Positions 5,607-49,481 of a stretch of DNA of 64,000 nucleotides are shown here, piece after piece. Position 1 is the first letter of the stretch. Each line of letters begins with the position of its first letter. The notes beneath the pieces were generated by a model. That model did not search any database and had not been told where the DNA came from. It worked only from the letters and a program-made list of their open reading frames with translations. The stretch is from Lachnospiraceae bacterium (GTDB taxonomy: Bacteria > Bacillota > Clostridia > Lachnospirales > Lachnospiraceae). A program made the position numbers and the translations under genes. The DNA lies in the NCBI GenBank assembly GCA_017520425.1, contig JAFXFO010000001.1, positions 1-64,000 on the forward strand, in the 5' to 3' direction.

Positions 5607-6434
5607 ATGAAACAATTAGGAAGTATGGGAACCGTGCCGGAGTGGTTGAATCTAAGGAATGTATTGACAGTAGTGTTTTTGCTGGCTATGTTTTTCGTGG
5701 GAAGGGCCATTGCTTACGCTACCACACCTACGGCGGGAGTGGTGGCACAAACAGAGAATTGGGGACTTGGCTTTGGAGAAAAAGGGACACAACCCACCGG
5801 TAACGAGTCGGCAGAAACCTTAAAAAAGTATGATGCACATTATGTGGGCGATAGTGAGGAGAAGGTCATATATCTGACCTTTGATGCGGGCTTTGAAAAC
5901 GGTAATACAGAGCCTATTTTAGATGCTTTAAAGAAGCACAATGCCAAGGGAACCTTCTTTGTAGTGGGACATTATCTGGAGACCGCACCGGAGTTAATCA
6001 AGCGTATGGTGGAGGAAGGTCATACAGTAGGCAACCATACTTATCACCATCCGGATATGTCCAAGATATCCGATAAGGCGGCTTTTACCAAGGAAATGCA
6101 GGATGTGGAAAGCTTATATAAGGAAATCACGGGAGAAGAAATGGTACCTTACTATCGTCCGCCACAGGGCAAATACAGTACCTCCAATATGCAGATGGCC
6201 AAGGAACTGGGGTACCATACCTTCTTTTGGAGTCTGGCCTACGTGGACTGGTATCAGGATAAGCAACCCAGTCATGAGGAAGCCTTTGATAAGCTGTTAA
6301 ACCGTATCCATCCCGGAGCCATTGTACTTCTGCACAGTACTTCACAAACCAATGGAGAGATTATGGATGAACTTCTGACCAAATGGGAGGAGATGGGCTA
6401 CCGCTTCGGAACCCTGGAGGAACTGATGGAGTAG
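5607..6434 (+). CDS. Polysaccharide deacetylase, PdaA-like (CE4)
   Basis: Removes acetyl groups from N-acetylated cell-wall sugars outside the membrane. It carries an N-terminal hydrophobic anchor (NVLTVVFLLAMFFVGRAIAYA), then a CE4 NodB domain: motif 1 YLTFDAGFENGNT, motif 2 HTVGNHTYHHPDMS (metal histidines), motif 3 YYRPPQGKYS, and a C-terminal IVLLHSTSQTNGE. The TFDAG..ENG pattern resembles PdaA, which makes muramic delta-lactam in the spore cortex; the spore role is inferred from family only. The start is uncertain: an ATG at 5589 falls inside the terminator hairpin, 5607 follows its U-run, and 5625 has AGGAAG very close upstream. None has an ideal ribosome binding site. The product is secure, the first ten or so residues are not. 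Confidence 0.88.
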   Translation: MKQLGSMGTVPEWLNLRNVLTVVFLLAMFFVGRAIAYATTPTAGVVAQTENWGLGFGEKGTQPTGNESAETLKKYDAHYVGDSEEKVIYLTFDAGFENGNTEPILDALKKHNAKGTFFVVGHYLETAPELIKRMVEEGHTVGNHTYHHPDMSKISDKAAFTKEMQDVESLYKEITGEEMVPYYRPPQGKYSTSNMQMAKELGYHTFFWSLAYVDWYQDKQPSHEEAFDKLLNRIHPGAIVLLHSTSQTNGEIMDELLTKWEEMGYRFGTLEELME

Positions 6435-6673
6435 AACACCTGCAAGGGGCATGGGGCGTAGAATATCCCTTGGTTGCGCAAGTCCTCGGACGCACGAATT
6501 ACTAAAGCTTTCAAATCATGCTAAAAGCAGGCACAAAAATCTCAAACTTGCTACGCTCAAACAGGTGAGATTTTTGCACCTAACGCATTCTTTGCAGGCT
6601 TAAGAAATTCTGTGCATCCTGCGGGAGCTTGCAACCAAGGGATATTCTACGCCCCATGCCCCTTGCTAGGGTT
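6434..6673. repeat. Giant inverted repeat (perfect 36-bp arms)
   Basis: Arms 6442-6477 and 6631-6666 are perfect reverse complements over 36 bases. Outward, GAAC pairs with GTTC across a short mismatch. Inward, pairing continues imperfectly (CCTCGGACGCAC against GTGCATCCTGCGG). At the tip, AAAAATCTCA pairs with TGAGATTTTT at about 6535-6587. The whole 240-bp gap between the deacetylase and the VWA gene is therefore one long hairpin. It contains no gene, no U-run at either end and no obvious target-site duplication. It may be a miniature inverted-repeat element or a structured RNA. Confidence 0.85.
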
Positions 6674-6765
6674 CCCCGGGATGTGGTAGAATAGGGAGAA
6701 ATCATGAATGAAAACCCTGTCAAAAGGGGAAAGATAATCTCAGAAAAAGCGAAAGAAGGGTGCAG

Positions 6766-25773: not shown

Positions 25774-26020
25774 GGGTAGTATATAAATTATTTCTTCATT
25801 CTACCCAATTCGAGTGCTAATTTTACTATAAAATGATGTAATTCTTTCCGTTTTGGGTAGTATGTAGAAAAAACATGCCTACTACCCAGAAAAACTTCGA
25901 TTTTGTGGGTAGCAGAGAACAATATTTTATATATTACCCAAAATGCTCTGTATATACAAAGTTTTACCCTATTTGGGGGAAATTTTTGGGTAGTAAGACC
26001 TGCTTTTCTTTATACTACCC
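25774..26020. repeat. Four 33-nt hairpins with GGGTAGTA/TACTACCC arms
   Basis: GGGTAG.. arms begin at 25774, 25855, 25907 and 25988; their partner ..TACCC arms end at 25806, 25887, 25939 and 26020. Each hairpin is exactly 33 bases, and starts are spaced 81, 52 and 81, so the array reads as two 114-base units 133 bases apart. Loops differ in sequence. This fills the 337-base gap between two convergent genes. No gene is present; it is not a CRISPR (arms are inverted, spacing unequal). Possible protein-binding palindromes or a decoy array. Confidence 0.8.
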
Positions 26021-26032
26021 ATAGACATTTAA

Positions 26033-34430: not shown

Positions 34431-34437
34431 TGGAGGG

Positions 34438-34632
34438 ATACCGGGCTCCCAAGGGGAGAGGGGACATACCCTTCACGTAATACTACTCTGAAAAACACAG
34501 ATAATAAAAAAATGTATGTCAGGGGCGGAGACACTTGTGTGTCCGACCAATGGCATACATTTTTTTATTAGATGTTTTTTCATTAGTGTGTGAGTGAAGG
34601 GTATGTTTCCTCTCCCCTTGGGAGTCCGGTAT
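34438..34632. repeat. Giant nested hairpin element, copy A
   Basis: Arms of 39 bases (34438-34476 and 34594-34632) match in 36 positions; the three mismatches are all G opposite T, so an RNA would pair throughout. Arms contain CTCCCAAGGGGAGAGG and CATACCCTTCAC. Centre: AAAAAAATGTATG/CATACATTTTTT (34506-34566) enclosing an apical 9-position helix with one mismatch. Core segments are shared with copy B at 44364-44731. No gene in the 297-base gap. Confidence 0.85.
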
Positions 34633-34727
34633 TTGCGCTGGGGCCGTGGATGAGGGGAATTCATCCCAAAATGTAGTAATGCACACCTTGAGGACTTTTC
34701 GAGAAAGTTCAAAGGTGTGCATTTTAG

Positions 34728-35795
34728 TTATTCTATTGAGAGTTTTTCTTCAAACTCTGCAATCAGTGTATGAAACTCTTCGCTGGTCTGCAAATACTCA
34801 TATTCCGGTGAGTGTTTGAGCTCTTGTATCAGTGGGGGTATCAGTTCTTTCATAGATGTACCGGTATCGTTGGTGGTTACTCTGCGGTATAACGGGGATT
34901 CTTGAACCTTCCGGACAGATAACATGGAATCAAACATTTCCCGAAGGAATGCTACCGTCTGTGCGGCATCCTTATTGGCGACGGCAACCGTAAAGTGAGC
35001 TACTGCGGTATTATACGGATTTAGATCAAAAGCTTCTGCCAGTTTTGTTACTCGCTCAGCCACATAAGCTGCCGTATCTTTATCGCCCAATGCAATGTTT
35101 GTATCGATTAATTTGTACATTATCGTTTGCACATCGTTTACTGCAGTGAGAAGTGACTGCTCTAACAGTTTGACAGCATCTTCGGCCTGATTTTGGTCGA
35201 GATAGATGGTGGCCTGTAGTAATCTTTTGTCCGGAATATCGTTGCGATTCGGTATTTGGTTAAGGTATTCCTGTGCTTTGTCATACTGTCCGTCACCGAT
35301 AGCTCGACTTGCCAGCATGAAACGTGCACTATTGCGAATAACAGCTTCATCGCTTTGTGCCAGACGCTCATACCAAGCGTCTATTTTTCTCCTATATGCA
35401 ATTGTTTGAGCCTCTTCCAAGCCGGCAGTCATCAATAAGCCTTGCAGCAGAAGTGCAAAATTATGAAGGAGCGAATCACTGTTAGGATACTCGTGAATTT
35501 TTTCCTGTGCTGCAGCAAATCCTGCATCAAAGCCAGCTGAAAGAGCTGTTTCATGTATTTCTTTGCAAAAGAGGATAAGCTCCTGTTGGGTAAGGTCCTC
35601 GTAAAAACCCAAGAGGGTATTAAGGTCAATTTTTAAAAGTCGGGCTAAGGGTGGCAGTAATGCTATATCAGGGCAGGTACTGCCCTTTTCCCATTTATTG
35701 ACTGCAGGCGTGGTGATGCCAAGATATTCTGCTACCTGCTCCTGCGTTAAGCCCAGGGCCTTGCGGCGTTCTTGAATGATCGTATGGATTATCAT
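34728..35795 (-). CDS. XRE-family regulator with TPR-like C-terminus
   Basis: 355 residues. N-terminal helix-turn-helix: IQERRKALGLTQEQVAEYLG, TPAVNKWEKGSTCPDIALLP. The remaining 290 residues are helical repeats (SARFMLASRAIGDGQYDKAQ, YLDQNQAEDAVKLLEQSL), like the tetratricopeptide domains of peptide-sensing regulators. No signal peptide gene is seen nearby. It is divergent from the FtsX transporter gene and has its own promoter at 35845-35873. Confidence 0.88.
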   Translation of the reverse strand: MIIHTIIQERRKALGLTQEQVAEYLGITTPAVNKWEKGSTCPDIALLPPLARLLKIDLNTLLGFYEDLTQQELILFCKEIHETALSAGFDAGFAAAQEKIHEYPNSDSLLHNFALLLQGLLMTAGLEEAQTIAYRRKIDAWYERLAQSDEAVIRNSARFMLASRAIGDGQYDKAQEYLNQIPNRNDIPDKRLLQATIYLDQNQAEDAVKLLEQSLLTAVNDVQTIMYKLIDTNIALGDKDTAAYVAERVTKLAEAFDLNPYNTAVAHFTVAVANKDAAQTVAFLREMFDSMLSVRKVQESPLYRRVTTNDTGTSMKELIPPLIQELKHSPEYEYLQTSEEFHTLIAEFEEKLSIE

Positions 35796-35844
35796 TATAT
35801 TTACTCCCTTCCATAAGAGATATCAAAGAATTCCTTGTAATGAT

Positions 35845-35873
35845 ATTATATCAACACAAGGGGGATTCTACAA
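35845..35873 (-). promoter_or_regulatory. Promoter of the XRE-TPR regulator
   Basis: Minus strand TTGTAG, 17-base spacer, perfect TATAAT, 50 bases before the ATG. Confidence 0.7.
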
Positions 35874-35936
35874 TTGAACAGAATTTTAATTTCTTATACA
35901 TTTTATTAACCAACAGGAAATAGGAGAGAAGATTGA

Positions 35937-36020
35937 CAAACTGATACTGTGGCAGGCTTTGTTATTGTGAGGAAGCTGGCGAAGGTACTGAAATGTGGTG
36001 TGGAAGAATTGTATGGGTGA
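35937..36020 (+). pseudogene. Remnant of an XRE regulator C-terminus
   Basis: An open stretch ending in TGA encodes VRKLAKVLKCGVEELYG, the typical last helix of XRE helix-turn-helix domains, but a stop lies 27 codons upstream and no start or first helices remain. Probably the tail of a deleted regulator gene. Confidence 0.5.
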
Positions 36021-36032
36021 GAGGGCGAGTTT

Positions 36033-36104
36033 TTTAAGATTTCTTTAAGGCTTCTTTAAGGTTTTTGGTACTCCATTGACAGCGCATACTCCCTGCATTA
36101 GGCT
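36033..36104 (+). promoter_or_regulatory. Promoter with three TTTAAG direct repeats (FtsX operon)
   Basis: TTTAAG at 36033, 36044 and 36055, exactly 11 bases apart, then 15 bases to TTGACA (36076), 17-base spacer, TAGGCT (36099). Face-of-helix repeats upstream of -35 suggest an OmpR-class activator. Nearly identical block at 41950-42021, related one at 39664-39713. Confidence 0.75.
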
Positions 36105-36138
36105 GAAAATATAATAGGCCAAGGCAGGGGGAGACAAC

Positions 36139-38973
36139 ATGAAATACGATATCTGCTTTATACGGAAATATTGGAAAAAGCATAAGAAACAAGCAATCAC
36201 CTTTTTAATGATTTATATCATTTTGGTGACGTATTTGCTTGTTTCTTTTTGTATGGTCAGAACGGAGCTTCGCCGTATTTATTTTGAAAATCAGGCGAAT
36301 CATTCGGAAAGTGGGCGCTTTTATGGTTATTATACTGCCGGAAGCGGGGCATACAATCACCTGTTTTATGGGATGGATGATGAGAAGATAGCTGAGCTGA
36401 TGCAAGAGCCTTGGGTTGAGGATTGTCAGACGGTTTATGTAAGTGGTTCTCTCGGAGTATCTGACTGGAGATATACTTGTGGAGCATTTTCCGGCGAGAG
36501 GGCAAAGGTGCTATCCGGTTATCATCTGGAGGCGGGAAGATACCCTGAAAAAAGCGGTGAAATCGCTGTTTCGCGACTGGCACTGGAAAACATGTGCGGA
36601 AATGCAGAGCTGGATAAATCAATAACACTCCTTCGGTATGACAAAGAAGGGAAGCACGTGGGAGAACTGGATGCGAAGGTCGTAGGTGTTATTCAGGACA
36701 ACGGACAGAGAGAAAGCTGGGAAACCTGTCTTAAATCCATAAATAAGTATTTTGAACCCACTATTTTACTGCCTTTAGAGGATGTGGATATTTCTGATTG
36801 TAGCAGATATGCCATGATTCGGATAACTGACGGACAAAGGATAGGGAGCTATACAGAGACCCGGGCGGAAGAATTAAATAAGCGGATAGAAACTTATTTT
36901 GAATGCGGAGCAGGGTTTGGGATTGGTGCATATGATAGTAGTTATTTTACTAAATTATCGGGTGTGAGTACCAATGAATATGACGGGACTGTAAAGCAGG
37001 AAAAGGTGTACTTTTATGAGTATACAGGTATCATAGCGGCAGTGCTGATGGCAGTGACCTTAAGCAGTGGTTTGTTGGCATTGTTTCCCACACGTATGAA
37101 ATCCCTGCGTCTATTGTGGCAAAACGGATACACTGTAAAAAGACTGCGTTGTATGCTGATGCTGGAATGCGGTATGTTTACCATAGGCGGACTGTTGGCA
37201 GGCTTTATAGTGGCAATGGGCGTATATGAAATATTATTGCAGATTCAGTACAGGGTGTTTGGCCTGGAGCTTTTCAGAGGCTATTTTGCAGAATGGGGAA
37301 TTTCTCAAATCACCTACTCTCCTATAGGATATACACTGGGGATTACCTGTGTTGTGTCTGTATTGAGCTATCTGATGGTATGTCTGTATGTAAGCAGAAG
37401 CCGGCTGGAGAAGGTAGAGAAGCCGACACGAGTAAAACACGGAAAAGTTTGTAATATAGGGCTTTTCAGAAAAGTAGGTAGGGTCATTAATCACCGAGGT
37501 ATAGCTACATTACAGGTAAGTGCACTGGTGATGGTTCTTATGATTGCAACAGCGGCGTATATGTTCTTCTCTACCAATGGAAAAAGCTCTTCCGGCAATC
37601 CCCAGATTTCGATGCAGGGAAATCTTTTCCAAACACAGCTGGGCTTAGATAGGCGTATCATACGAGCAGATGCGACCATAGAACGCAGAAATGCGACGGC
37701 GGCAGCCGGATTGTTTGAACTGGATGTCAGCGCAGGGTATGGCTTTTCCTATGATAAGGTAGCACAGTTGGAGAGTAGTGAGCTATTTGAAAAATGTCTG
37801 GCATGGTCCAATGTGATTACCTACGCAAGATATCCAAAGGGTAGTAAGGTATCGCCCCTGTTGAAACTTTATCCCCGTGAGTGGTATGCAGAGGGGGAGC
37901 AGGAGTGGTATGGTTTGGGCGACTATGATGTGTATTGTATGGATGACCCGGCTAAGAGCAGTATATTAGTGGGTGATGAGTTTTTGGAAAGAATATTAGG
38001 AGCTACAGAAGCAGGGAAAATGCTTTCGGATAATGGTGTGGTTGTGGTGACCGCAAATGGCAGGTCTCCTTTTAAGGAAGGGGAAGAGATTCCTATGTTT
38101 GCAGCCAGTGGAGTATTTCGGGATGAAGCACATTATGATTATGATTTAGACAATGTAGTAATGTATGAAGTAAGAGTGGACAAGGTGATAAAGGCTGAGA
38201 GTTTCAAGGACGACCCTATGTTGAGCGGTATCTTAAATAAGCTCTCGGCACAATATATTATCATTTATCCTTATAAGACGGCAGAAACGGTAGAATTACC
38301 AAAAAAGAATTTAGAACAAATATATTTACAGTATGCTCCGCCGGCAACCGACAGAAAGGTAAAGAAGCTGGTTCACGAATTAAATACAGGCAAAGCAGAT
38401 ATGGGGGTAACGACTACCGCGGACTGTCAGGAGCAATTTGACAGAGTAATGCTGAAGGAGTATTCCATTGTGTTTACCATCTTCGGGTTGTTGTTTGTAT
38501 TAGCGATGATAGGATATATGCAGACCTTGAAACTACAGGTGTTTCGTTGTGAGGAGCAGATTCATCTGTTTGCAACTATGGGAATGACAGGACAAAGAAT
38601 GGGAAAAATGTTGTTTTTCCACTTGATGAAGATACCGATATTGGCAGTTTGCCTGGCGGGTGTGGGAGTTGTCGGGATGAAGACTTTCTTACATAACAGA
38701 TATGAAAGAGTGTTGGAGCTGAAAGAACTGGCCAGACGGGCCTCAATAAAGTATCCACCGGATTTTCAACTGCAGGATCAATACAAGATGCAGTGTAATG
38801 AGCTGACAAACCGCTTTTTTACGGACTATGAGATGTGGAAGGTACCTGTAGCATCCCTATTTGTACTATTAAGTGGTGTGGTGCTGGTAGTGGCTGCTGT
38901 CATGGTAGTATATGTGATACGAAAGGTGATTAAGAAGGATATGCAGAGAAGGGAGATGGGCAGCCGTGAGTAA
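36139..38973 (+). CDS. Large FtsX-type ABC transporter permease
   Basis: 944 residues with two FtsX-like cores. One N-terminal membrane segment (FLMIYIILVTYLLVSFCMV), an extracytoplasmic domain of about 240 residues, three segments around residues 295-430 (IIAAVLMAVTLSSGLLALFP, LECGMFTIGGLLAGFIVAM), one near 455, a second large outside domain, then three C-terminal segments (YSIVFTIFGLLFVLAMIGYM, ASLFVLLSGVVLVVAAVMVV). This matches MacB/BceB-like permeases that use mechanotransmission rather than forming an import channel. It overlaps the ATPase gene by eight bases. AGGGGGAG precedes the ATG. No sensor kinase or response regulator lies beside it. Confidence 0.88.
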   Translation: MKYDICFIRKYWKKHKKQAITFLMIYIILVTYLLVSFCMVRTELRRIYFENQANHSESGRFYGYYTAGSGAYNHLFYGMDDEKIAELMQEPWVEDCQTVYVSGSLGVSDWRYTCGAFSGERAKVLSGYHLEAGRYPEKSGEIAVSRLALENMCGNAELDKSITLLRYDKEGKHVGELDAKVVGVIQDNGQRESWETCLKSINKYFEPTILLPLEDVDISDCSRYAMIRITDGQRIGSYTETRAEELNKRIETYFECGAGFGIGAYDSSYFTKLSGVSTNEYDGTVKQEKVYFYEYTGIIAAVLMAVTLSSGLLALFPTRMKSLRLLWQNGYTVKRLRCMLMLECGMFTIGGLLAGFIVAMGVYEILLQIQYRVFGLELFRGYFAEWGISQITYSPIGYTLGITCVVSVLSYLMVCLYVSRSRLEKVEKPTRVKHGKVCNIGLFRKVGRVINHRGIATLQVSALVMVLMIATAAYMFFSTNGKSSSGNPQISMQGNLFQTQLGLDRRIIRADATIERRNATAAAGLFELDVSAGYGFSYDKVAQLESSELFEKCLAWSNVITYARYPKGSKVSPLLKLYPREWYAEGEQEWYGLGDYDVYCMDDPAKSSILVGDEFLERILGATEAGKMLSDNGVVVVTANGRSPFKEGEEIPMFAASGVFRDEAHYDYDLDNVVMYEVRVDKVIKAESFKDDPMLSGILNKLSAQYIIIYPYKTAETVELPKKNLEQIYLQYAPPATDRKVKKLVHELNTGKADMGVTTTADCQEQFDRVMLKEYSIVFTIFGLLFVLAMIGYMQTLKLQVFRCEEQIHLFATMGMTGQRMGKMLFFHLMKIPILAVCLAGVGVVGMKTFLHNRYERVLELKELARRASIKYPPDFQLQDQYKMQCNELTNRFFTDYEMWKVPVASLFVLLSGVVLVVAAVMVVYVIRKVIKKDMQRREMGSRE

Positions 38974-39634
38974 GGAAATACGAATAGAACATCTGTCTAA
39001 AACATATACAAACGGAGATGTGAAGGTGGAGGCACTAAAGGACTGTAGTCTGGAGTTTGAAAGAGGTAAGATGACTGCCATTATCGGAGCCTCGGGAAGT
39101 GGAAAATCTACATTACTACAGCTGTTGGGAGGGCTGATGCCTGCTACGTCGGGGCAAATCTTTTTTGGAGAGAAGGATATTTTACAGCTGACAGATGTGG
39201 AACTGGCAGAATTTCGTTGTAGGAATGTGGGCTTTGTGTTTCAGTTTTTCAACCTAATACCGGAGCTCACTGTCAGGGAAAATATAGAGGTGCCACTACA
39301 AATAGGAAAAATGCCAATGGATGGAGAATATTTGGAGCAATTAGTAGAGACATTAGGTATCGGAGAATGCATGGAACGATACCCCAATCAGATATCCGGT
39401 GGGCAGCAGCAAAGAGTGGCGATTGCCAGAGCACTTGTAAAAAAGCCGCAGGTGATTCTCTGCGATGAACCTACCGGCAATTTGGATACCCATAATGGGC
39501 AGATGGTATTGAATCTGCTTAGGCAGCTACAGAAGGAATATGGGCAAACCATTATACTGGTTACTCATGATATGCATATTGCAGGACTGGCGGATAAAGT
39601 CATACGGATTGAGGATGGAGAGATTATCGTGTAG
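38966..39634 (+). CDS. ABC transporter ATPase, LolD/MacB/BceA type
   Basis: 222 residues. Walker A GASGSGKST, Q-loop FVFQFFNLIPELT, signature ISGGQQQRVAIARAL, Walker B VILCDEPTGNLD and switch His VTHDMHIAG are all intact. Pairs with FtsX-fold permeases, and its start overlaps the permease gene. It ends 110 bases before the first lipoprotein gene, with a TTTAAG-type promoter in between. Confidence 0.95.
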   Translation: MSKEIRIEHLSKTYTNGDVKVEALKDCSLEFERGKMTAIIGASGSGKSTLLQLLGGLMPATSGQIFFGEKDILQLTDVELAEFRCRNVGFVFQFFNLIPELTVRENIEVPLQIGKMPMDGEYLEQLVETLGIGECMERYPNQISGGQQQRVAIARALVKKPQVILCDEPTGNLDTHNGQMVLNLLRQLQKEYGQTIILVTHDMHIAGLADKVIRIEDGEIIV

Positions 39635-39663
39635 GGGAAATAAAAGTCATTTCTTACAAGTTT

Positions 39664-39713
39664 TTTAAGGTTTTTGAGGCTCCATTGACAGCTTATGCTC
39701 TCACAGGTAAGAT
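39664..39713 (+). promoter_or_regulatory. TTTAAG-type promoter of the first lipoprotein gene
   Basis: TTTAAG at 39664 flanked by TTACAAG and TTTGAG, then TTGACA (39685), 17-base spacer, TAAGAT (39708). Same layout as 36033-36104, with less exact repeats but a better -10. Confidence 0.65.
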
Positions 39714-39743
39714 GAAAATATAAGGCATGACAGGGGGGATCAT

Positions 39744-41945
39744 ATGTATCAGCATAAATTTGTTAAACTATTGCTTTGGTTGGGGATATTAATGGTTTTT
39801 GTAACCGGTTGCGGAAAGAAGGACTCGGAGGATACAGTAATATTGGCAAAAAGCGCCTCTAAAACGTATACCATAAGTAGTCGGTTGTTAAAGCCGGATA
39901 TAGGGAGTGTCAGTATTAACAGGAACTATCATGTAGCGGGAGAGATGCTTTACTTTCTGGGGGATGGAGAAAAAGAAAGAGGAATCTATAGTATGCCATT
40001 GGACAGAGACGGAGAGGTGACGAGATTGCCCATTGATTGGGATATTTCGGAAGCCTGTCTGCTTTTTACCATACCTACAGATGGTCAGCTATACTGCTTT
40101 TTCGAGGAGGAAGAGGGGCAGTATTCTTTGCGAAGCTATACTCTTCGGGGTGAAATGATACGGCAGCAGGATATCACATCCGGGCTGGGGCAGAATCCGG
40201 AAGAGTTCCCTTTTAACAAGGCAGTGGTTGACGGGATCGGAAAGGTGTATACCTTGGGAGAAGAAAGGCTTCGTTTATTTCAGCAAGATGGTGGATACTG
40301 CGGCAGTATAGAATTGCCGGGCAAGGAGCTGCTGGATATGGTTTGTGCAGGAGCAGATACCGTCTACGTGACGTATCGCAGAGCGGAAGATACCCATGTA
40401 TATCTGGCCAAGGTGGATCAAAAGACCGGAATGCTTGGAGAAGCTGTTTCTATCCCCGGTACCGGGAAATTATGTACCGATGAGGAAGGAAATATACTTA
40501 CATGTGATGCCCGATATCTGTATGAAATAGATACCGTTACCGGGGAAGAGATAGCGTTATTGGATTTGCCCAGGCATTATATCAAGGTGGCGGATATTTG
40601 TGAATTACGAAGAAGCAATTCGGGAGAGTTCTCTTTTTTATTAAAAGCAGTTCGGGGAAATGGGGATGAGCTGGAATGGATTACTTTAAGAGAAAATATT
40701 ATGGCGAGCAATCAGGGGAAGGAAGAGAAGACGATTCTGCGATTGGTAGCACCGTGTACGGAAGGTGAGGATACGGATTTGTTAAACTTCATCATGGAGT
40801 TTAACAAACAGAATGAGAATTACCAGGTATCCTATGAACCCTTGGGATTGGCTACCGATGAGGAATTTGCCATGTTTGTCAATACAAGGATGATCACGGA
40901 TAATTGTCCTGATTTATTGCTGGTTAATTATTTTTTGTATGAAACTTATACGGAAGCAGGGGTATTGGAAGATTTACAACCCTATATAGACCAAAGCCTG
41001 CTGATTTCTACACAGGACTATCTGGAAAATGCCATAGCACCTCATAAAAAGGGGGATGCTATATACGGATTCCCTAAAACATTGGATGTGCAAGGGTGGG
41101 TAGGTAAAAAAAGCCAGGTGGAAGAGCTGTATCAAAATATGACCATAGATTCTTTTTTGAGTTTCTTAGAGAAGCATCCGTCTGCCAGATTCGAGTATGA
41201 CGGGGAATATAGCGGATTGTTAAGAACCTGTCTTAAATTTGGTATGGGAGAGTATGTGGATTTTGAAAAGGGAGTTTGTTCCTTTGATGGTAAAAAGTTT
41301 CGGGAGTTAATGGAACGGATTAAAGCCACGCAAAATATTCATGCCGTACCAAGGGGACAGTGGAACAGCGTAAAGGACAGCGATGCTATATTGTTTATGG
41401 AAACCCATCTGGGTGATTTTCTTGCCTTGGAGAAAAAGGCTGCAGAATACGGAGAAGAGCTGATTTTTCTGGGCTATCCGTCTGAGGATGGTAGCCTGAT
41501 GGGAGAAGCATGGCCGGAAGGAAGCTTGGCAATTGCCGCAAACAGCAAAGAGAAGGAGGGAGCCTGGGAGTTTCTAAAGTACTATATCCTAAACTATCAC
41601 AGTCCCTACGGCATGCCGGCAGAAAAGTATCGGTTTGAAGAGCAATGGAAATCCATTCAAACTCCTAAATATGAAGAGGATGCTTCCGGTCAAAAGGTGG
41701 AAGCACCTATAAGCTATGTTTTCTACCAAAATCAAATGGAGCCAATTTATGCACTTTCGGAAGAAAGAGCAAACCATATATATGAAGCAGTAAAGAGTGC
41801 ACGTCCATTTTCGGCGGAAGAGCAAACCATTTTAAATATTGTTTATGAAGAGTCGGATGGTTATTTTTATGGTCAAAAAACCTTAGAGGAAACCGTGGAC
41901 GTTATTCAGAACCGTTGCCAGCTGTTTCTGGATGAGAGAGGATGA
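39744..41945 (+). CDS. Large lipoprotein with C-terminal solute-binding-like domain (1)
   Basis: 733 residues. Lipoprotein signal with lipobox VTGC, Cys at about residue 23. Residues about 50-320 look like a beta-propeller-type region (repeating short strands, for example GIYSMPLDRDGEVTRLPID, SLRSYTLRGEMIRQQDIT). Residues about 330-650 resemble a family 1 extracellular solute-binding protein (LLNFIMEFNKQNENYQVSYE, GYPSEDGSLMGEAWPEGSLA, EGAWEFLKYYILNY). It ends NRCQLFLDERG, as does the next gene. No importer permease accompanies it. Confidence 0.8.
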   Translation: MYQHKFVKLLLWLGILMVFVTGCGKKDSEDTVILAKSASKTYTISSRLLKPDIGSVSINRNYHVAGEMLYFLGDGEKERGIYSMPLDRDGEVTRLPIDWDISEACLLFTIPTDGQLYCFFEEEEGQYSLRSYTLRGEMIRQQDITSGLGQNPEEFPFNKAVVDGIGKVYTLGEERLRLFQQDGGYCGSIELPGKELLDMVCAGADTVYVTYRRAEDTHVYLAKVDQKTGMLGEAVSIPGTGKLCTDEEGNILTCDARYLYEIDTVTGEEIALLDLPRHYIKVADICELRRSNSGEFSFLLKAVRGNGDELEWITLRENIMASNQGKEEKTILRLVAPCTEGEDTDLLNFIMEFNKQNENYQVSYEPLGLATDEEFAMFVNTRMITDNCPDLLLVNYFLYETYTEAGVLEDLQPYIDQSLLISTQDYLENAIAPHKKGDAIYGFPKTLDVQGWVGKKSQVEELYQNMTIDSFLSFLEKHPSARFEYDGEYSGLLRTCLKFGMGEYVDFEKGVCSFDGKKFRELMERIKATQNIHAVPRGQWNSVKDSDAILFMETHLGDFLALEKKAAEYGEELIFLGYPSEDGSLMGEAWPEGSLAIAANSKEKEGAWEFLKYYILNYHSPYGMPAEKYRFEEQWKSIQTPKYEEDASGQKVEAPISYVFYQNQMEPIYALSEERANHIYEAVKSARPFSAEEQTILNIVYEESDGYFYGQKTLEETVDVIQNRCQLFLDERG

Positions 41946-41949
41946 GTTT

Positions 41950-42021
41950 TTTAAGATTTCTTTAAGGCTTCTTTAAGGTTTTGGGTACTCCATTGACAGG
42001 ACATACTCCTTGCATTAGGCT
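41950..42021 (+). promoter_or_regulatory. Promoter with three TTTAAG direct repeats (second lipoprotein)
   Basis: TTTAAG at 41950, 41961 and 41972 (11-base spacing), 15 bases to TTGACA (41993), 17-base spacer, TAGGCT (42016). Nearly identical to 36033-36104, implying promoter duplication. Confidence 0.75.
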
Positions 42022-42055
42022 GAAAATATAGTAGGTCAAGGCAGGGGGTATTTTA

Positions 42056-44362
42056 TTGAAAAAGAAACGGAAGAATAGTTTGATTATATTTACTTTTATA
42101 GCACTGTTATTAACTTCCTGCGGCACAAAGACCATTCAGCAGGAGCAGATAAATTTTTCCTTGTCGGTACAACAGGATATTTATTGCTTGGTGGAGGAAC
42201 AGGATGTGCCGGACTGGGAAGCCGCGGTACGGGAAGTGGTAGGAGATGCCAAGCTGACAGTACAGGAACCCATGGTGTACAAGGAGGGGGTTCTTCAGTG
42301 GGTCATTGAATTTAATGATACCATGGATTCTGTAACAGAAGCTTATATCCAGTTGTATTCCACAGAAACAAAGGAATGGAATCTGATACCCACCCGATGT
42401 GGGTTTGAAAAGGATGGTGTTACTTATAGCGGAATCAGTGCTGCTTTTGTATCCATGGAGGGGGATTTGTATTGTCTGGTACATAAAGAAGACGGAAGTA
42501 CGAATTTAGCCACCATGGATGCTAGTGGTGTGAAACAGATTTTAGGGGATGCAGGGAAGCTTCGGGAGCAATTGTTGCGAAACGGAGATTCTAATATTTT
42601 TATGGACTTATCTGGGAAAATTTATTTATATCAGGACCCGGACATTTCTGACATCAACACAGATGCGACCCATATAGAAATATATGACGGGAATCTACAG
42701 AAGGAGCGTATGCAGGAAGTGCCGGGAAGGATGTATGGCATGCTACAAACATCATCTGATACGGAACCCTATTGGTATGGCATAGGAGAAGATGGCAAAT
42801 CTGTGGTAAAGCAATTAGGCGCAGAAGCTGCATTTGTGATAGGGATAGAAGGATTGGCCGCAAAAGAATATATAGCAGGATGTTCTGCGGATGGATATCT
42901 ATGTCTGACAGATGCCGGTGCACTCTGGGTGGTGACGGAAGTAAGTGCACAGAAGGTGCTTAACTGGCAGGAGCAGGGATACTATTGGGATGCCCTTTAT
43001 GGGATGGTACAGGGGCCGCAAGGCATTACTTACCTGTTAGGGCAGTTGGATGGAGAAAAAGTATTGATAAGCCTTTGCTTCACCAAGGAAAAACCGATTA
43101 CTAAGAAGCAGGAGGTTGTTATAGCTTTAACTACGCAAAATACGGCTCTGGAGGATGTGGTAGCGGATTTCAACAGAAAGAGCAGTAAATACTGTGTGAA
43201 GATTATATTGCCGGAGGGAGCAGAGAATCATACCCTGTCCGATGATATATTTGTAAAGCAGACGCAGTTTCGAGAAAAGATACAAATGGAGCTGAGTGCC
43301 GGTAGAGGGCCGGATATTCTGGGAGACGATGTGCTCGTGGATGCGGAGTCTTTGGCAGTAAACGGATATTTGGAACGGCTGAATAGGCAGGAATTTCAGA
43401 ACGGACAGCAATTAGAAGCAGTGTTTGAAAGCGGTATGATAGGGGATATCTGTTATGGAATACCCTATGATTTCACATTGGACTTTGCCGCATATCGTGC
43501 TCAAGATGTGGAAGGTGTAACTGGATGGTCTATGCAGGATTTGATGGAGCGTGTAAGAAAAAGTGATGCCCAAGCCTTAGAAAAGGGGCTTGGTGGCAAA
43601 GAGATTGTAGTGAATTATGCACTCACAGATGTGACAAATACAGAATACATCGACTGGGAGAATGGAGTCAGTCACCTTACAGAGGGGCCTTTCCTGGAAG
43701 TGCTTGCATTTGCCAAAGAATATGCAGAGGATGGTGTCAAGGCACAGCTTTCGGAGCAAGAGTATTTCGCAGTAAGTTATTCTAAGATCCCCATGTATGC
43801 GCTGACGGAAATGAAGAATCTTTATGATAAACTGGAAGGGGATGTGAAGGTATTGGGGTATCCTCATACGCAGGAAATGGGGATTTATGTGAATGCCCGA
43901 GTGTTTTATGTCAATAGTCAGTCAGCACAGAAGAAAGGGGCAGTAGAGTTCCTAAAGTACCTTCTTTCAGAGCAGGCGCAGACTAAGTATGCAACCCATG
44001 ACTTTTTAAAGGATGTGAGTAACTCCGGAGGCTTTTTTACCGGTACACCGGCATATTTCCCGGTAAACAAAGCCGCGATGGAGACTCTCATACGGCAGGA
44101 ACAAAAGAAAGATAAGCAAAACGGATACATGGCCAATGACGGTACCTTTGTATATCTTATCCCTCCATATACGGAGGAGCAACTGGAAGGATTCCGCTCC
44201 ATGATAGAAAATGCAAAGCCCAAAAGCCGGAATATAAGTAAAATACAGGGAATGGTTTATGAAGAGCTGGAGCCTTATTTTAGGGGAAGTATTTCGGCAG
44301 AGGAAGCAGCAGAAAAGCTGGATAACCGATGCCAGTTATTTCTGGATGAGAGAGGGAACTAG
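42056..44362 (+). CDS. Large lipoprotein with C-terminal solute-binding-like domain (2)
   Basis: 768 residues, a diverged paralogue of the preceding lipoprotein. TTG start after GCAGGGGG; lipobox LTSC with Cys at about residue 22. N-terminal propeller-like part, then a solute-binding-like domain from about residue 355 (VVIALTTQNTALEDVVADFN, AGRGPDILGDDVLVD, KKGAVEFLKYLLSEQAQTKY). Ends NRCQLFLDERGN like its neighbour. A nested giant hairpin begins two bases after its stop. Confidence 0.8.
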   Translation: MKKKRKNSLIIFTFIALLLTSCGTKTIQQEQINFSLSVQQDIYCLVEEQDVPDWEAAVREVVGDAKLTVQEPMVYKEGVLQWVIEFNDTMDSVTEAYIQLYSTETKEWNLIPTRCGFEKDGVTYSGISAAFVSMEGDLYCLVHKEDGSTNLATMDASGVKQILGDAGKLREQLLRNGDSNIFMDLSGKIYLYQDPDISDINTDATHIEIYDGNLQKERMQEVPGRMYGMLQTSSDTEPYWYGIGEDGKSVVKQLGAEAAFVIGIEGLAAKEYIAGCSADGYLCLTDAGALWVVTEVSAQKVLNWQEQGYYWDALYGMVQGPQGITYLLGQLDGEKVLISLCFTKEKPITKKQEVVIALTTQNTALEDVVADFNRKSSKYCVKIILPEGAENHTLSDDIFVKQTQFREKIQMELSAGRGPDILGDDVLVDAESLAVNGYLERLNRQEFQNGQQLEAVFESGMIGDICYGIPYDFTLDFAAYRAQDVEGVTGWSMQDLMERVRKSDAQALEKGLGGKEIVVNYALTDVTNTEYIDWENGVSHLTEGPFLEVLAFAKEYAEDGVKAQLSEQEYFAVSYSKIPMYALTEMKNLYDKLEGDVKVLGYPHTQEMGIYVNARVFYVNSQSAQKKGAVEFLKYLLSEQAQTKYATHDFLKDVSNSGGFFTGTPAYFPVNKAAMETLIRQEQKKDKQNGYMANDGTFVYLIPPYTEEQLEGFRSMIENAKPKSRNISKIQGMVYEELEPYFRGSISAEEAAEKLDNRCQLFLDERGN

Positions 44363-44423
44363 GGGAACCACCACCGGGGACGGGAGCATACCCTTCACGT
44401 AATACTACTCTGAAAAACACAGT

Positions 44424-44509
44424 AAATAAATTGTCGCCCGGCGGCGACAATTACAAGAATTGCTTCGCAATTCTTCTTAATCCCCACCACTGTACTCGCA
44501 CAACTTCCT
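44424..44509 (-). ncRNA. Repeated motif with terminator-like hairpin (copy 3, minus)
   Basis: On the minus strand: AGGAAGTTGTGCGAGTACAG, GTGGGGATTAAG, AGAATTGC/GCAATTCT, then TTGTCGCC/GGCGACAA and TTTATTT. The last stem has a different sequence from the other copies but equal pairing. Confidence 0.5.
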
Positions 44510-44587
44510 CTGGAACAAAAAATGTATGTCAGGGGACGAACACATTTATGTGTACGGACCACGACATACATTTTTTATTTATGGAAT

Positions 44588-44671
44588 AGGAAATTGCGCG
44601 AGTACAGTGGTGGAGATTAAGGAGATTGCGAAGCAATTCTCCCAAGCGGATACGCCGGTATCCGCTTTTTT
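44588..44671 (+). ncRNA. Repeated motif with terminator-like hairpin (copy 2)
   Basis: About 92% identical by eye to 28199-28283, with one base deleted in the first hairpin arm (GAGATTGC); ends GCGGATAC/GTATCCGC and TTTTTTT. Arm of copy B. Confidence 0.5.
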
Positions 44672-44768
44672 ATCTGTTTTTTCATTAGTGTGTGAGTGAA
44701 GGGTATGCTCTCGTCCCCGGTGGGTGGTTCCGAGTAGAACTCCCCCTTATATTCCCCACAGTTTTTAT

Positions 44769-44797
44769 TTGACACTAGGCCTCGAAAATACTATCAT
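44769..44797 (+). promoter_or_regulatory. Promoter of the MutS-like pair
   Basis: TTGACA, 17-base spacer, TATCAT, 73 bases before the first ATG. Confidence 0.7.
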
Positions 44798-48074: not shown

Positions 48075-48102
48075 AATCACGAAAGAATTAAATATGATTT
48101 CG

Positions 48103-48204
48103 ACTTATTCAGAGTGGTGGAGGTACAGAGGACCTGTGAAGCCACGGCAACCCCTGCAAAGGAAGGTGCCAACCTGAGCAAGAGTAACAACTTGAACAAT
48201 AAGT
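48103..48204 (+). ncRNA. SAM-I (S-box) riboswitch
   Basis: P1 ACTTATT/AATAAGT closes the domain. Conserved core AGAGTGGTGGAGG, GAAGCCACGGCAACC, GGAAGGTGCCAACCTG and AGAGTAACAAC are in S-box order. It binds S-adenosylmethionine and, with the terminator at 48228-48257, should switch metK off when SAM is plentiful. Confidence 0.95.
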
Positions 48205-48227
48205 GGATTTGACTATCGATTATTAGT

Positions 48228-48287: not shown

Positions 48288-49481
48288 ATGGAAAGAGAAA
48301 AGAGATTATTTACTTCCGAATCTGTAACTGAAGGCCATCCGGACAAAATCTGTGATGCTGTTTCTGATGCGGTGTTAGATGCCTTGATGGCACAGGACCC
48401 TTACAGCCGTGTGGCTTGTGAGACTTGTACCAATACCGGTTTCGTACTGGTAATGGGTGAAATCACTACCAATGCAGTGGTAGATATTCCCAGCATCGTA
48501 CGTCAGACCGTAACCGAAATCGGCTATGACAGCTCCGAAAAGGGCTTTGACGGCAATACCTGTGCAGTTATGGTTTCTTTGGACAAGCAGTCTACCGATA
48601 TCGCTATGGGTGTAGATAAGGCAAAGGAAGCAAAGGACGGCGAAATGACCGATGCTGAAATCGAAGCTATCGGTGCCGGCGACCAGGGTATGATGTTTGG
48701 TTATGCTTCCAACGAAACCGAAGAGTATATGCCTTATCCTATTTCTTTGGCACATAAGTTAACCAAGAAGCTCACCGAGGTTCGTAAGGATGGTACCTTA
48801 ACCTATTTAAGACCCGACGGAAAGAGCCAGGTTTCCGTAGAATATGATGAAAACGGCAAGCCCTATCGTTTAGAGGCAGTGGTATTGTCTACCCAGCATG
48901 ACGCGGCAGTAACCCAGGAGCAGATTCATGCAGATATCAAGAAGTATGTATTTGACCCGGTACTTCCTGCAGACATGATTGATGCTAAGACCAAGTTCTT
49001 CATCAACCCCACCGGCCGTTTCGTAATCGGCGGTCCTAACGGTGACAGTGGTTTGACCGGTCGTAAGATTATCGTAGATACCTACGGCGGATACGCTCGT
49101 CACGGCGGCGGTGCTTTCTCCGGAAAGGACTGCACCAAGGTAGACCGTTCTGCAGCTTATGCAGCACGCTATGTGGCGAAGAACATTGTAGCAGCAGGAC
49201 TTGCTGAGAAGTGTGAAATCCAGCTTTCCTACGCTATTGGTGTGGCACAGCCTACTTCTGTCATGGTAGATACCTTCGGCACCGGCAAAATCGCTGACGA
49301 GAAGCTGGTAAATATTATCCGTGAAAACTTCGACCTGCGACCTGCAGGCATCATCAAGATGCTTGACCTTCGCAGACCTATCTACAAGCAGACTTCCGCT
49401 TACGGACATTTCGGCCGTAACGATTTGAACCTGCCTTGGGAAGCACTGGATAAGGTAGAAGATTTAAAGAAATACTTATAA
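48288..49481 (+). CDS. metK: S-adenosylmethionine synthetase
   Basis: Makes SAM from methionine and ATP. 397 residues, standard length. Motifs: [20 protein letters not shown] at the N-terminus, [12 protein letters not shown] and [19 protein letters not shown] (phosphate-binding loop), ending in [14 protein letters not shown]. The ATG follows AAAGGAG. Controlled by the SAM-I riboswitch immediately upstream; a terminator follows. Confidence 0.98.

Follow-up and report, generated by a model that had tools for sequence, protein, structure and literature searches.

A dispersed family of nested hairpins with compensated arms in intergenic DNA of gut Lachnospiraceae

Introduction

The window analyzed here is the whole stretch of 64,000 nucleotides at positions 1 to 64,000 (forward strand) of contig JAFXFO010000001.1, from a Lachnospiraceae bacterium assembly (GCA_017520425.1). 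Two giant hairpins within it, copy A (34438-34632) and copy B (44364-44731), raise the question of what kind of element has a common core and outermost arms that differ in sequence between copies, yet pair with themselves in each. The first-pass annotation of this DNA suggested selection on structure, probably that of a large RNA, with a fold-back mobile element as the alternative. We find that A and B belong to a scattered, intergenic family of nested-hairpin repeats in gut Lachnospiraceae, and consider here what maintains their structure, how they spread and what they may do.

Results

Copies A and B

An inverted-repeat scan of the window identified the arms of A (about 200 nt in total) at 34438-34476 and 34594-34632 (39 nt, 92% complementary, with a spacer of 117 nt) and the outer arms of B (about 370 nt) at 44371-44398 and 44696-44723 (28 nt, 96%), with more nested arms inside the latter; based on the predicted fold, the outer helix of B reaches 44364-44731 with one bulge. 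The three mismatches in the arms of A and the single one in B are all G opposite T, as had been described. As RNA, copy A folds with -140 kcal/mol (z -15.5, none of 200 shuffles equal) and copy B with -233 kcal/mol (z -21.3, none of 100 shuffles equal). The two copies have identical blocks of 36, 33, and 19 nt, which enter just the innermost part of the outer helix and beyond which the arms diverge, bearing out the earlier description of common cores within unlike, self-pairing arms. The account of the apical helices held in part: A has CGGAGACAC/GTGTGTCCG with one G.G and B has CGAACACAT/ATGTGTACG with one A.A, as described, but the purine mismatch falls at the fifth position in A and at the third in B and so is a different pair in each. 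The features of the two copies are as follows.

34436..34634, + strand: copy A, whole nested hairpin, P1 of 41 bp, 154 bits with covariance model R1 at 34460-34612; located after murA and convergent with an HTH/TPR gene
34436..34476, + strand: 5' arm of P1 in A, pairing with 34594-34634 (5 G-U, 0 A-C)
34477..34500, + strand: conserved 5' block of A (GTAATAC...TGAAAAACACAG), inner loop and 5' strands of P2 and P3, from the alignments
34507..34565, + strand: apical hairpin P4 of A (AAAAAATGTATGTCA/TGGCATACATTTTTT), with P5 at 34526-34534 / 34537-34545
34574..34593, + strand: conserved 3' block of A (GTTTTTTCATTAGTGTGTGA), 3' strands of P3 and P2 and inner loop, from the pattern search and alignments
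34594..34634, + strand: 3' arm of P1 in A
44364..44731, + strand: copy B, entire nested hairpin, flanked by genes for a solute-binding lipoprotein and a MutS-domain protein, all co-directional
44364..44398, + strand: 5' arm of the outer helix of B, partner 44696-44731
44431..44516, + strand: extra nested arm of B, 5' side, not in A, with a small hairpin at 44429-44452 (limits by eye)
44517..44576, + strand: apical hairpin P4/P5 of B, 19 nt the same as in A
44577..44667, + strand: extra nested arm of B, 3' side, the complement of the arm at 44431-44516, and with a hairpin at 44644-44667 followed by a T-run (limits by eye)
44696..44731, + strand: 3' arm of the outer helix of B
44769..44797, + strand: promoter-like site TTGACA-17-TATCAT, 3' of B and before the MutS-domain gene (a consensus match; the number of such sites there is not above chance)

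If the promoter-like site is used, B would belong to the 3' part of the transcript that carries the lipoprotein gene. The complementary extra arms of B (44431-44516 and 44577-44667) are both located between P3 and P4 and represent a two-sided compensated insertion.

Distribution of the family

A DNA search of the genome in which the window lies (G000) identified two more copies, C, which neighbors suf-like genes, and D, next to cysK; the outer arms of C are wholly unlike the others (37 nt, 100% complementary). A pattern search with the conserved 3' block found three copies in a second genome of the genus, G077; contigs of Lachnospiraceae bacterium RGIG6281, obtained from sheep rectum, match the cores of these copies exactly. 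In the genus, nine places matched the pattern, of which seven are real and two (in G093 and G038) are, by eye, FtsW-like coding sequence. Pattern searches elsewhere matched nine stretches in the genome_contigs scan, three of them real (RGIG6281) and the remaining six without the upstream half (by eye), none in the viral_contigs scan, and one of 397 genomes at the family level, namely this one.

Covariance models, whose alignments all exclude copy B on account of its extra arms, extended the set. A six-copy model had matches in two of 138 genus genomes (G000 and G077), and a nineteen-copy model, run on the same 138 genomes, identified 13 places here (B partially), seven in G077, and two in G075, with no match in the other 135 under stricter Infernal filters and with at most 22 candidates scored per genome. 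When these three genomes were searched more deeply, the gains were limited to one chance-level match and, next to copy R, a piece of 57 nt (E 2.5e-4). At most places the opposite strand also scores, although lower, because the element is nearly palindromic. Covariance-model searching, as suggested in the first-pass annotation, thus did yield more copies.

Beyond the genus, a third model, built from 21 copies, matched 12 of 397 family genomes, this one included, at E<=0.1 with seven candidates scored per genome. Five of the others had matches at E 1e-6 or better (G436, G455, G235, G359, and G278), and deeper searches of ten of the matched genomes uncovered further places, in G359 and G436 among others; as E-values were computed per genome, weak matches in the family may be due to chance. 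One match in G235 retains, by eye, the UAAUGCAC / GUGUGUGA inner loop and is likely homologous to A and B on this likeness. Several distant matches have an apical GGCGGAC..GUCCGA-like hairpin and nested stems as here, together with a different inner loop (by eye), and the homology of these remaining matches to A and B is uncertain. A second hairpin class, with the inner loop UUGUNCGCA / GCGAACAA, was noted by eye in other genera.

Anatomy

From the outside inward the element consists of helix P1, an inner loop (GUAAU / UGUGA), P2, an A-rich conserved P3, a loop with about 8 nt per side and, innermost, the apical P4/P5. Conservation resides in the inner blocks (GUAAUGCACYGU...AAAA / UUUUUU...CGGUGUGUGA) and the apical GGCGGAC hairpin, and a U-G pair in P2 (columns 22/136) is invariant in all 21 copies. 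P1 is 23 bp long in 11 of the 21 copies and 22-24 bp in 15, under a length rule that excludes helices of <20 bp by construction and allows mismatches among the first 20; two rows (gE and h2) probably contain an indel. Copies A, C, and h1 have longer helices (41, 37, and 35 bp, respectively), so that 23 bp is the mode and not a rule. Outside P1, the adjacent base is mostly A 5' of the helix (16/21) and G 3' of it (17/21), and the bases on the inside are G (16/21) and A (19/21); mostly, therefore, the same type of purine mismatch is found at both ends of the helix. Short GTAA-like tags adjoin the helix ends in many copies. There is no conserved terminal inverted repeat among the copies: the outermost arms differ and ~12-15 bp near the inner loop are partly common.

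Selection on structure

Among 21 copies (B left out), 95.5% of cells pair, changes on both sides were found in 32 of the 48 pairs, including all 17 in P1, and the covariation score was 0.508 relative to 0.164 when shuffled, with none of 500 shuffles matching any of five measures; slid versions of the structure scored far lower. Since these shuffles retain the relatedness of the copies and the alignment itself had supplied the structure, we used a tree-free test on seven site-matched pairs of copies, one from G000 and one from G077 in each. Over all 48 pairs there were 30 double changes relative to 6.6 expected (26 paired in both, 0 of 2000 permutations), and in P1 there were 16 relative to 4.8 expected, all 16 of which keep their pairing in the two species (0 of 2000 permutations). 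In this tree-free form, covariation beyond kinship, which had been proposed as a check, was thus found. Not all of the seven pairs are clean orthologs, as Q is most similar to gK and not to gQ, and C is equally close to gE and gH, which points to conversion between copies; without the Q and C pairs, P1 has 10 double changes in 85 cells, all of them paired.

The imperfect cells carry information on the strand. When read on the motif strand, those in the 17 fixed P1 columns of 19 copies comprise 31 G-U, two A-C, and 15 other mismatches. By locus in this genome, G-U outnumbers A-C in 10 of 12, with two ties and no reverse case, although the rule used to extend arms favors G-U at their ends. Correction of palindromes in DNA would be indifferent to G-U versus A-C, whereas folding of the motif strand is sensitive to it, which argues for an RNA or single-stranded DNA hairpin of that strand. 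We are therefore highly confident that the structure of one strand is under selection, and most simply that structure is an RNA, in agreement with the original suggestion.

Sites and mobility

The family is multi-copy with diverged paralogs. All seven copies in G077 are located at sites that also have a copy here (murA, suf-like, cysK, C11/C38, C16/C110, and two C4/C31 sites), with the murA copy of G077 (E) inverted relative to murA by comparison with the copy here. Conversely, six sites filled here have no copy in G077. Five of these could be compared (J, N, O, P, and R), site B being outside the comparison as its upstream gene has no match in G077, and all five are 222-425 nt shorter in G077 and have no covariance-model match there. 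The gap at J is 436 nt here and 11 in G077, at O 372 and 15, at P 267 and 45, and at R 343 and 46; that at N is 226 nt shorter in G077, as judged by length. The idea of a fold-back mobile element was thus partly right, in that these five sites are without the element in G077. At R the element is missing from genome G030 as well, making an insertion in G000 the simpler reading, and we infer a gain at this site. No clean target duplication was found at the inserts examined, whose ends vary: that at J is flanked on both sides by GGAGGA and that at O by nothing beyond TA, and extra flanking hairpins in the inserts blur the ends.

The gap at R, between valS and folC (L069:4150-4340), also contains a mini hairpin with an inverted inner-loop motif and a weak covariance-model match (G000:C8:13332-13388). 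The outer arm of this mini hairpin looks like an inverted copy of the valS 3' end.

Orientation and neighboring genes

All nine copies located between co-directional genes here (B, I, J, K, M, O, P, Q, and R) are in the sense orientation. Copies A, C, and D are between convergent genes and copy N is between divergent genes, with promoter-like sequence after the element (by eye). Of the two G075 copies, one has the same direction as the gene upstream of it and the other is antisense to its two large neighbors, with a 149-codon ORF of unsure standing upstream in sense. With respect to replication, the copies are on the G-rich, presumed leading, strand in 13 of 13 cases here (a call that for seven loci rests on 8-kb stretches), six of seven in G077, and neither of two in G075. 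Orientation is consequently confounded in this genome, where rules of transcription and replication are inseparable, and replication-linked insertion is a possible cause of it.

The genes flanking the copies include murA, suf-like genes, cysK, pgi and a D-hydroxyacid dehydrogenase gene, leuB/ilvD, folC, and genes for ABC transporters, MATE, and patatin, with valS, TatD, tadA, and others named by eye. They have no common metabolic theme, and a ligand-binding riboswitch is for this reason unlikely. In eight of the nine co-directional copies the modeled core ends 26-60 nt 5' of the next start codon, and A, C, and D are at gene 3' ends; a generic role at mRNA boundaries fits both placements. A candidate leader peptide (an AGGAG-like stretch and ATG TTT TTT ATC, which might be read as MFFIRCV, in several copies) was rejected, as by eye A has an early stop and D, M, and P have no ATG. 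On the 5' side of copy I (L062:3950-4200) and outside the element proper is a stretch, CGATTTTCAT, that is complementary to the beginning (ATGAAAATCG) of the dehydrogenase gene lying downstream.

Other hairpins and repeats

A third giant hairpin in the window, at 6434-6674, has a perfect stretch of 36 bp in 44-nt arms (93%) and fold z-scores of -12.2 and -13.8 on the two strands. It begins at the stop codon of a gene identified by eye as polysaccharide-deacetylase-like and is followed by a gene in the same direction; as it is unmatched by covariance model R3, it belongs to a different class. Two further giant hairpins, on contig C11 of this genome (L179:13926-14199 and L180:3273-3465), have in common a 46-nt apical stretch (87%) on opposite strands, and that in L179 has a 21-nt small hairpin in common with copy B. 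A genome-wide flood of near-perfect palindromes was considered and is not clearly supported. With arms of at least 20 nt there are 10 clusters in 464 kb here and seven in 400 kb of genome G006, with arms of at least 25 nt four and one, and with arms of at least 35 nt four and none, in a scan that counts Watson-Crick pairs only and misses many family members; one shuffle of the 464 kb in 3-base chunks had no inverted repeats (arms >=20, 88%).

Between A and B, a repeat of 63-113 nt (76-93%) precedes an ABC permease gene and two lipoprotein genes (36019-36131, 39661-39723, and 41936-42048), and looks like a shared regulatory region. A cluster of short palindromes of the TGGGTAGTA type is located at 25851-26021.

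Discussion

The arms of this family turn over yet stay paired, its G-U pairs are strand-specific and its modal outer helix is of two turns, and these features together represent direct comparative evidence for selection on the structure of one strand, in a field where the RNA role of dispersed hairpin repeats (ERIC, NEMIS) rests on few cases. Our preferred reading, which is a model put forward tentatively and at somewhat less than even probability, is of a dsRNA processing element, MITE-like and co-transcribed, that has spread by insertion. The element would insert between genes and be read as part of the mRNA. RNase III measures about two helical turns, and the two-turn helix P1, bounded by purine mismatches, may be the substrate of a dimeric dsRNA endonuclease of this type, whose cleavage would separate the upstream from the downstream mRNA and leave both with hairpin ends that protect them. 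As for the conserved inner loops, these might bind a second factor or be the recognition site of the original mobilizing enzyme, with dispersal by insertion having occurred formerly and perhaps still occurring. Against this model stand the confounded orientation of the copies, the antisense copy in G075, the longer P1 of A, C, and h1, and the placement of N between divergent genes; a single-stranded DNA hairpin read on one strand would also tolerate G-T and not A-C, which counts against a reading as RNA only, and that no clean target duplication or conserved terminal repeat was found is a further point against the model.

An unlikely alternative is a selfish hairpin moved as single-stranded DNA, through trans-mobilization of the IS200/IS605 or RAYT kind, by an enzyme that reads the folded top strand, such that compensation and tolerance of G-T would reflect folding of that DNA and orientation would follow the replication fork. 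This would account for the position of all 13 copies here on the G-rich strand, including A, C, D, and N, which are unconstrained by gene direction, and is consistent with the sites that are element-free in G077, the GTAA-like tags by the helix ends and the many diverged paralogs. However, E in G077 and both G075 copies are on the other strand, and the G077 set, with all seven sites in common, is mostly inherited and yet its arms kept changing in compensated pairs, something for which a purely mobile element would have no need. A search for the Y1 hallmark motif in 464 kb of the genome (about one sixth) and 8-10 kb element loci gave no match, which is a weak argument against this alternative.

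Palindrome-correcting mutation is established for quasipalindromes, and template switching or gene conversion between arms could by itself keep arms complementary without selection on RNA. The inversion of the murA copy between the two species, which an arm-mediated event could explain, and the likeness of the valS-folC outer arm to the inverted valS end are in its favor, but such a process is blind to G-U versus A-C, for which the count is 31 to 2, and has left the U-G pair at columns 22/136 uncorrected in every copy, so we consider correction alone very improbable. A giant, possibly bidirectional, transcription terminator, or an insertion into a terminator loop with the outer arms being local terminator stems, would suit the convergent genes around A, C, D, and seven of 11 distant loci examined, the A-tract and T-tract flanks around the stem in several distant matches (e.g., L113, L142, and L114), and the promoter-like site after B. 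Terminator-type matches are present inside the nested structure (34536-34559 and 44644-44667), but no T-run follows the outer stems of A and B, and eight cores end shortly before a co-directional start codon. That the differing arms stem from a terminator loop already in place is ruled out at J and O, where G077 has just 11 and 15 nt with no stem, and the arms therefore came with the element. Overall, we regard a terminator as quite improbable.

The processing element may be part of something larger, although we hold this broader proposal to be doubtful: a Lachnospiraceae-wide class of mobile structured RNAs, whose giant nested hairpins, those of the present class and of the second class noted by eye in other genera, would be specific to each genome and have in common an apical GGCGGAC..GUCCGA and sense intergenic copies, and which would be measured by a dsRNA-binding enzyme via a two-turn helix with symmetric purine mismatches. 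If so, sequence could drift freely while the RNA "ruler" stays. The filled and element-free sites in related species also offer a natural experiment on operon expression in a gut commensal group.

A search of the window with Rfam (4227 families) returned as its sole match a SAM riboswitch at 48102-48205 (upstream of a gene at 48288 identified by eye as methionine adenosyltransferase-like), with no family on A or B, and a search of 10 element loci at E<=1 returned microRNA precursor models alone, the best at 42.8 bits compared to a gathering score of 120. Kink-turn, twister, and other motifs were unsupported, and on the elements no Rfam model attained its gathering score. We found no description of such a hairpin family in the open-access literature searched. 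Among reports of structured RNAs, PMC8040213 gives 3161 candidate RNAs. It is possible that the family is an unnamed entry among those candidates.

Fungal double-hairpin elements are scattered, divergent hairpins that invade intergenic DNA. In sponge mitochondria, scattered hairpin elements, divergent in structure and composition, are described as invading intergenic DNA (PMC2800124). Likened to these by description alone, the present family is similar in scatter and divergence and differs in that theirs are organelle genomes. REP/REPIN elements are likewise hairpins located between genes and bear a short tag at the foot of the helix. They consist of GTAG-tagged paired REPs mobilized by RAYT transposases, whereas the tag here is GUAA-like and beside a helix with nested hairpins, with no GTAG-tagged pairs; no RAYT-type motif was found in the DNA searched (about one sixth of the genome and the element loci).

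What unites ERIC copies is a consensus that runs the whole length of the element, whereas in the present family most copies have compensated outer arms of unrelated sequence and the conserved parts are internal blocks. Both are multi-copy and intergenic and form one long hairpin, and the 127-bp ERIC is described as co-transcribed and as altering mRNA stability depending on its orientation (PMC2229807; PMC10969869). The Correia/NEMIS elements of Neisseria are likewise hairpin repeats, of ~107 and 155 bp, whose RNA is reported to be cut by RNase III (PMC2229807; PMC10969869); they belong to a different phylum and are described with 24-bp terminal inverted repeats, target duplication, and a terminal TA (PMC2229807), of which a conserved terminus and clear duplication were not found here. 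By analogy, the family may work like an ERIC/NEMIS-type repeat, and the lack of a conserved terminus places it beside these elements as a new variant rather than among them as a member.
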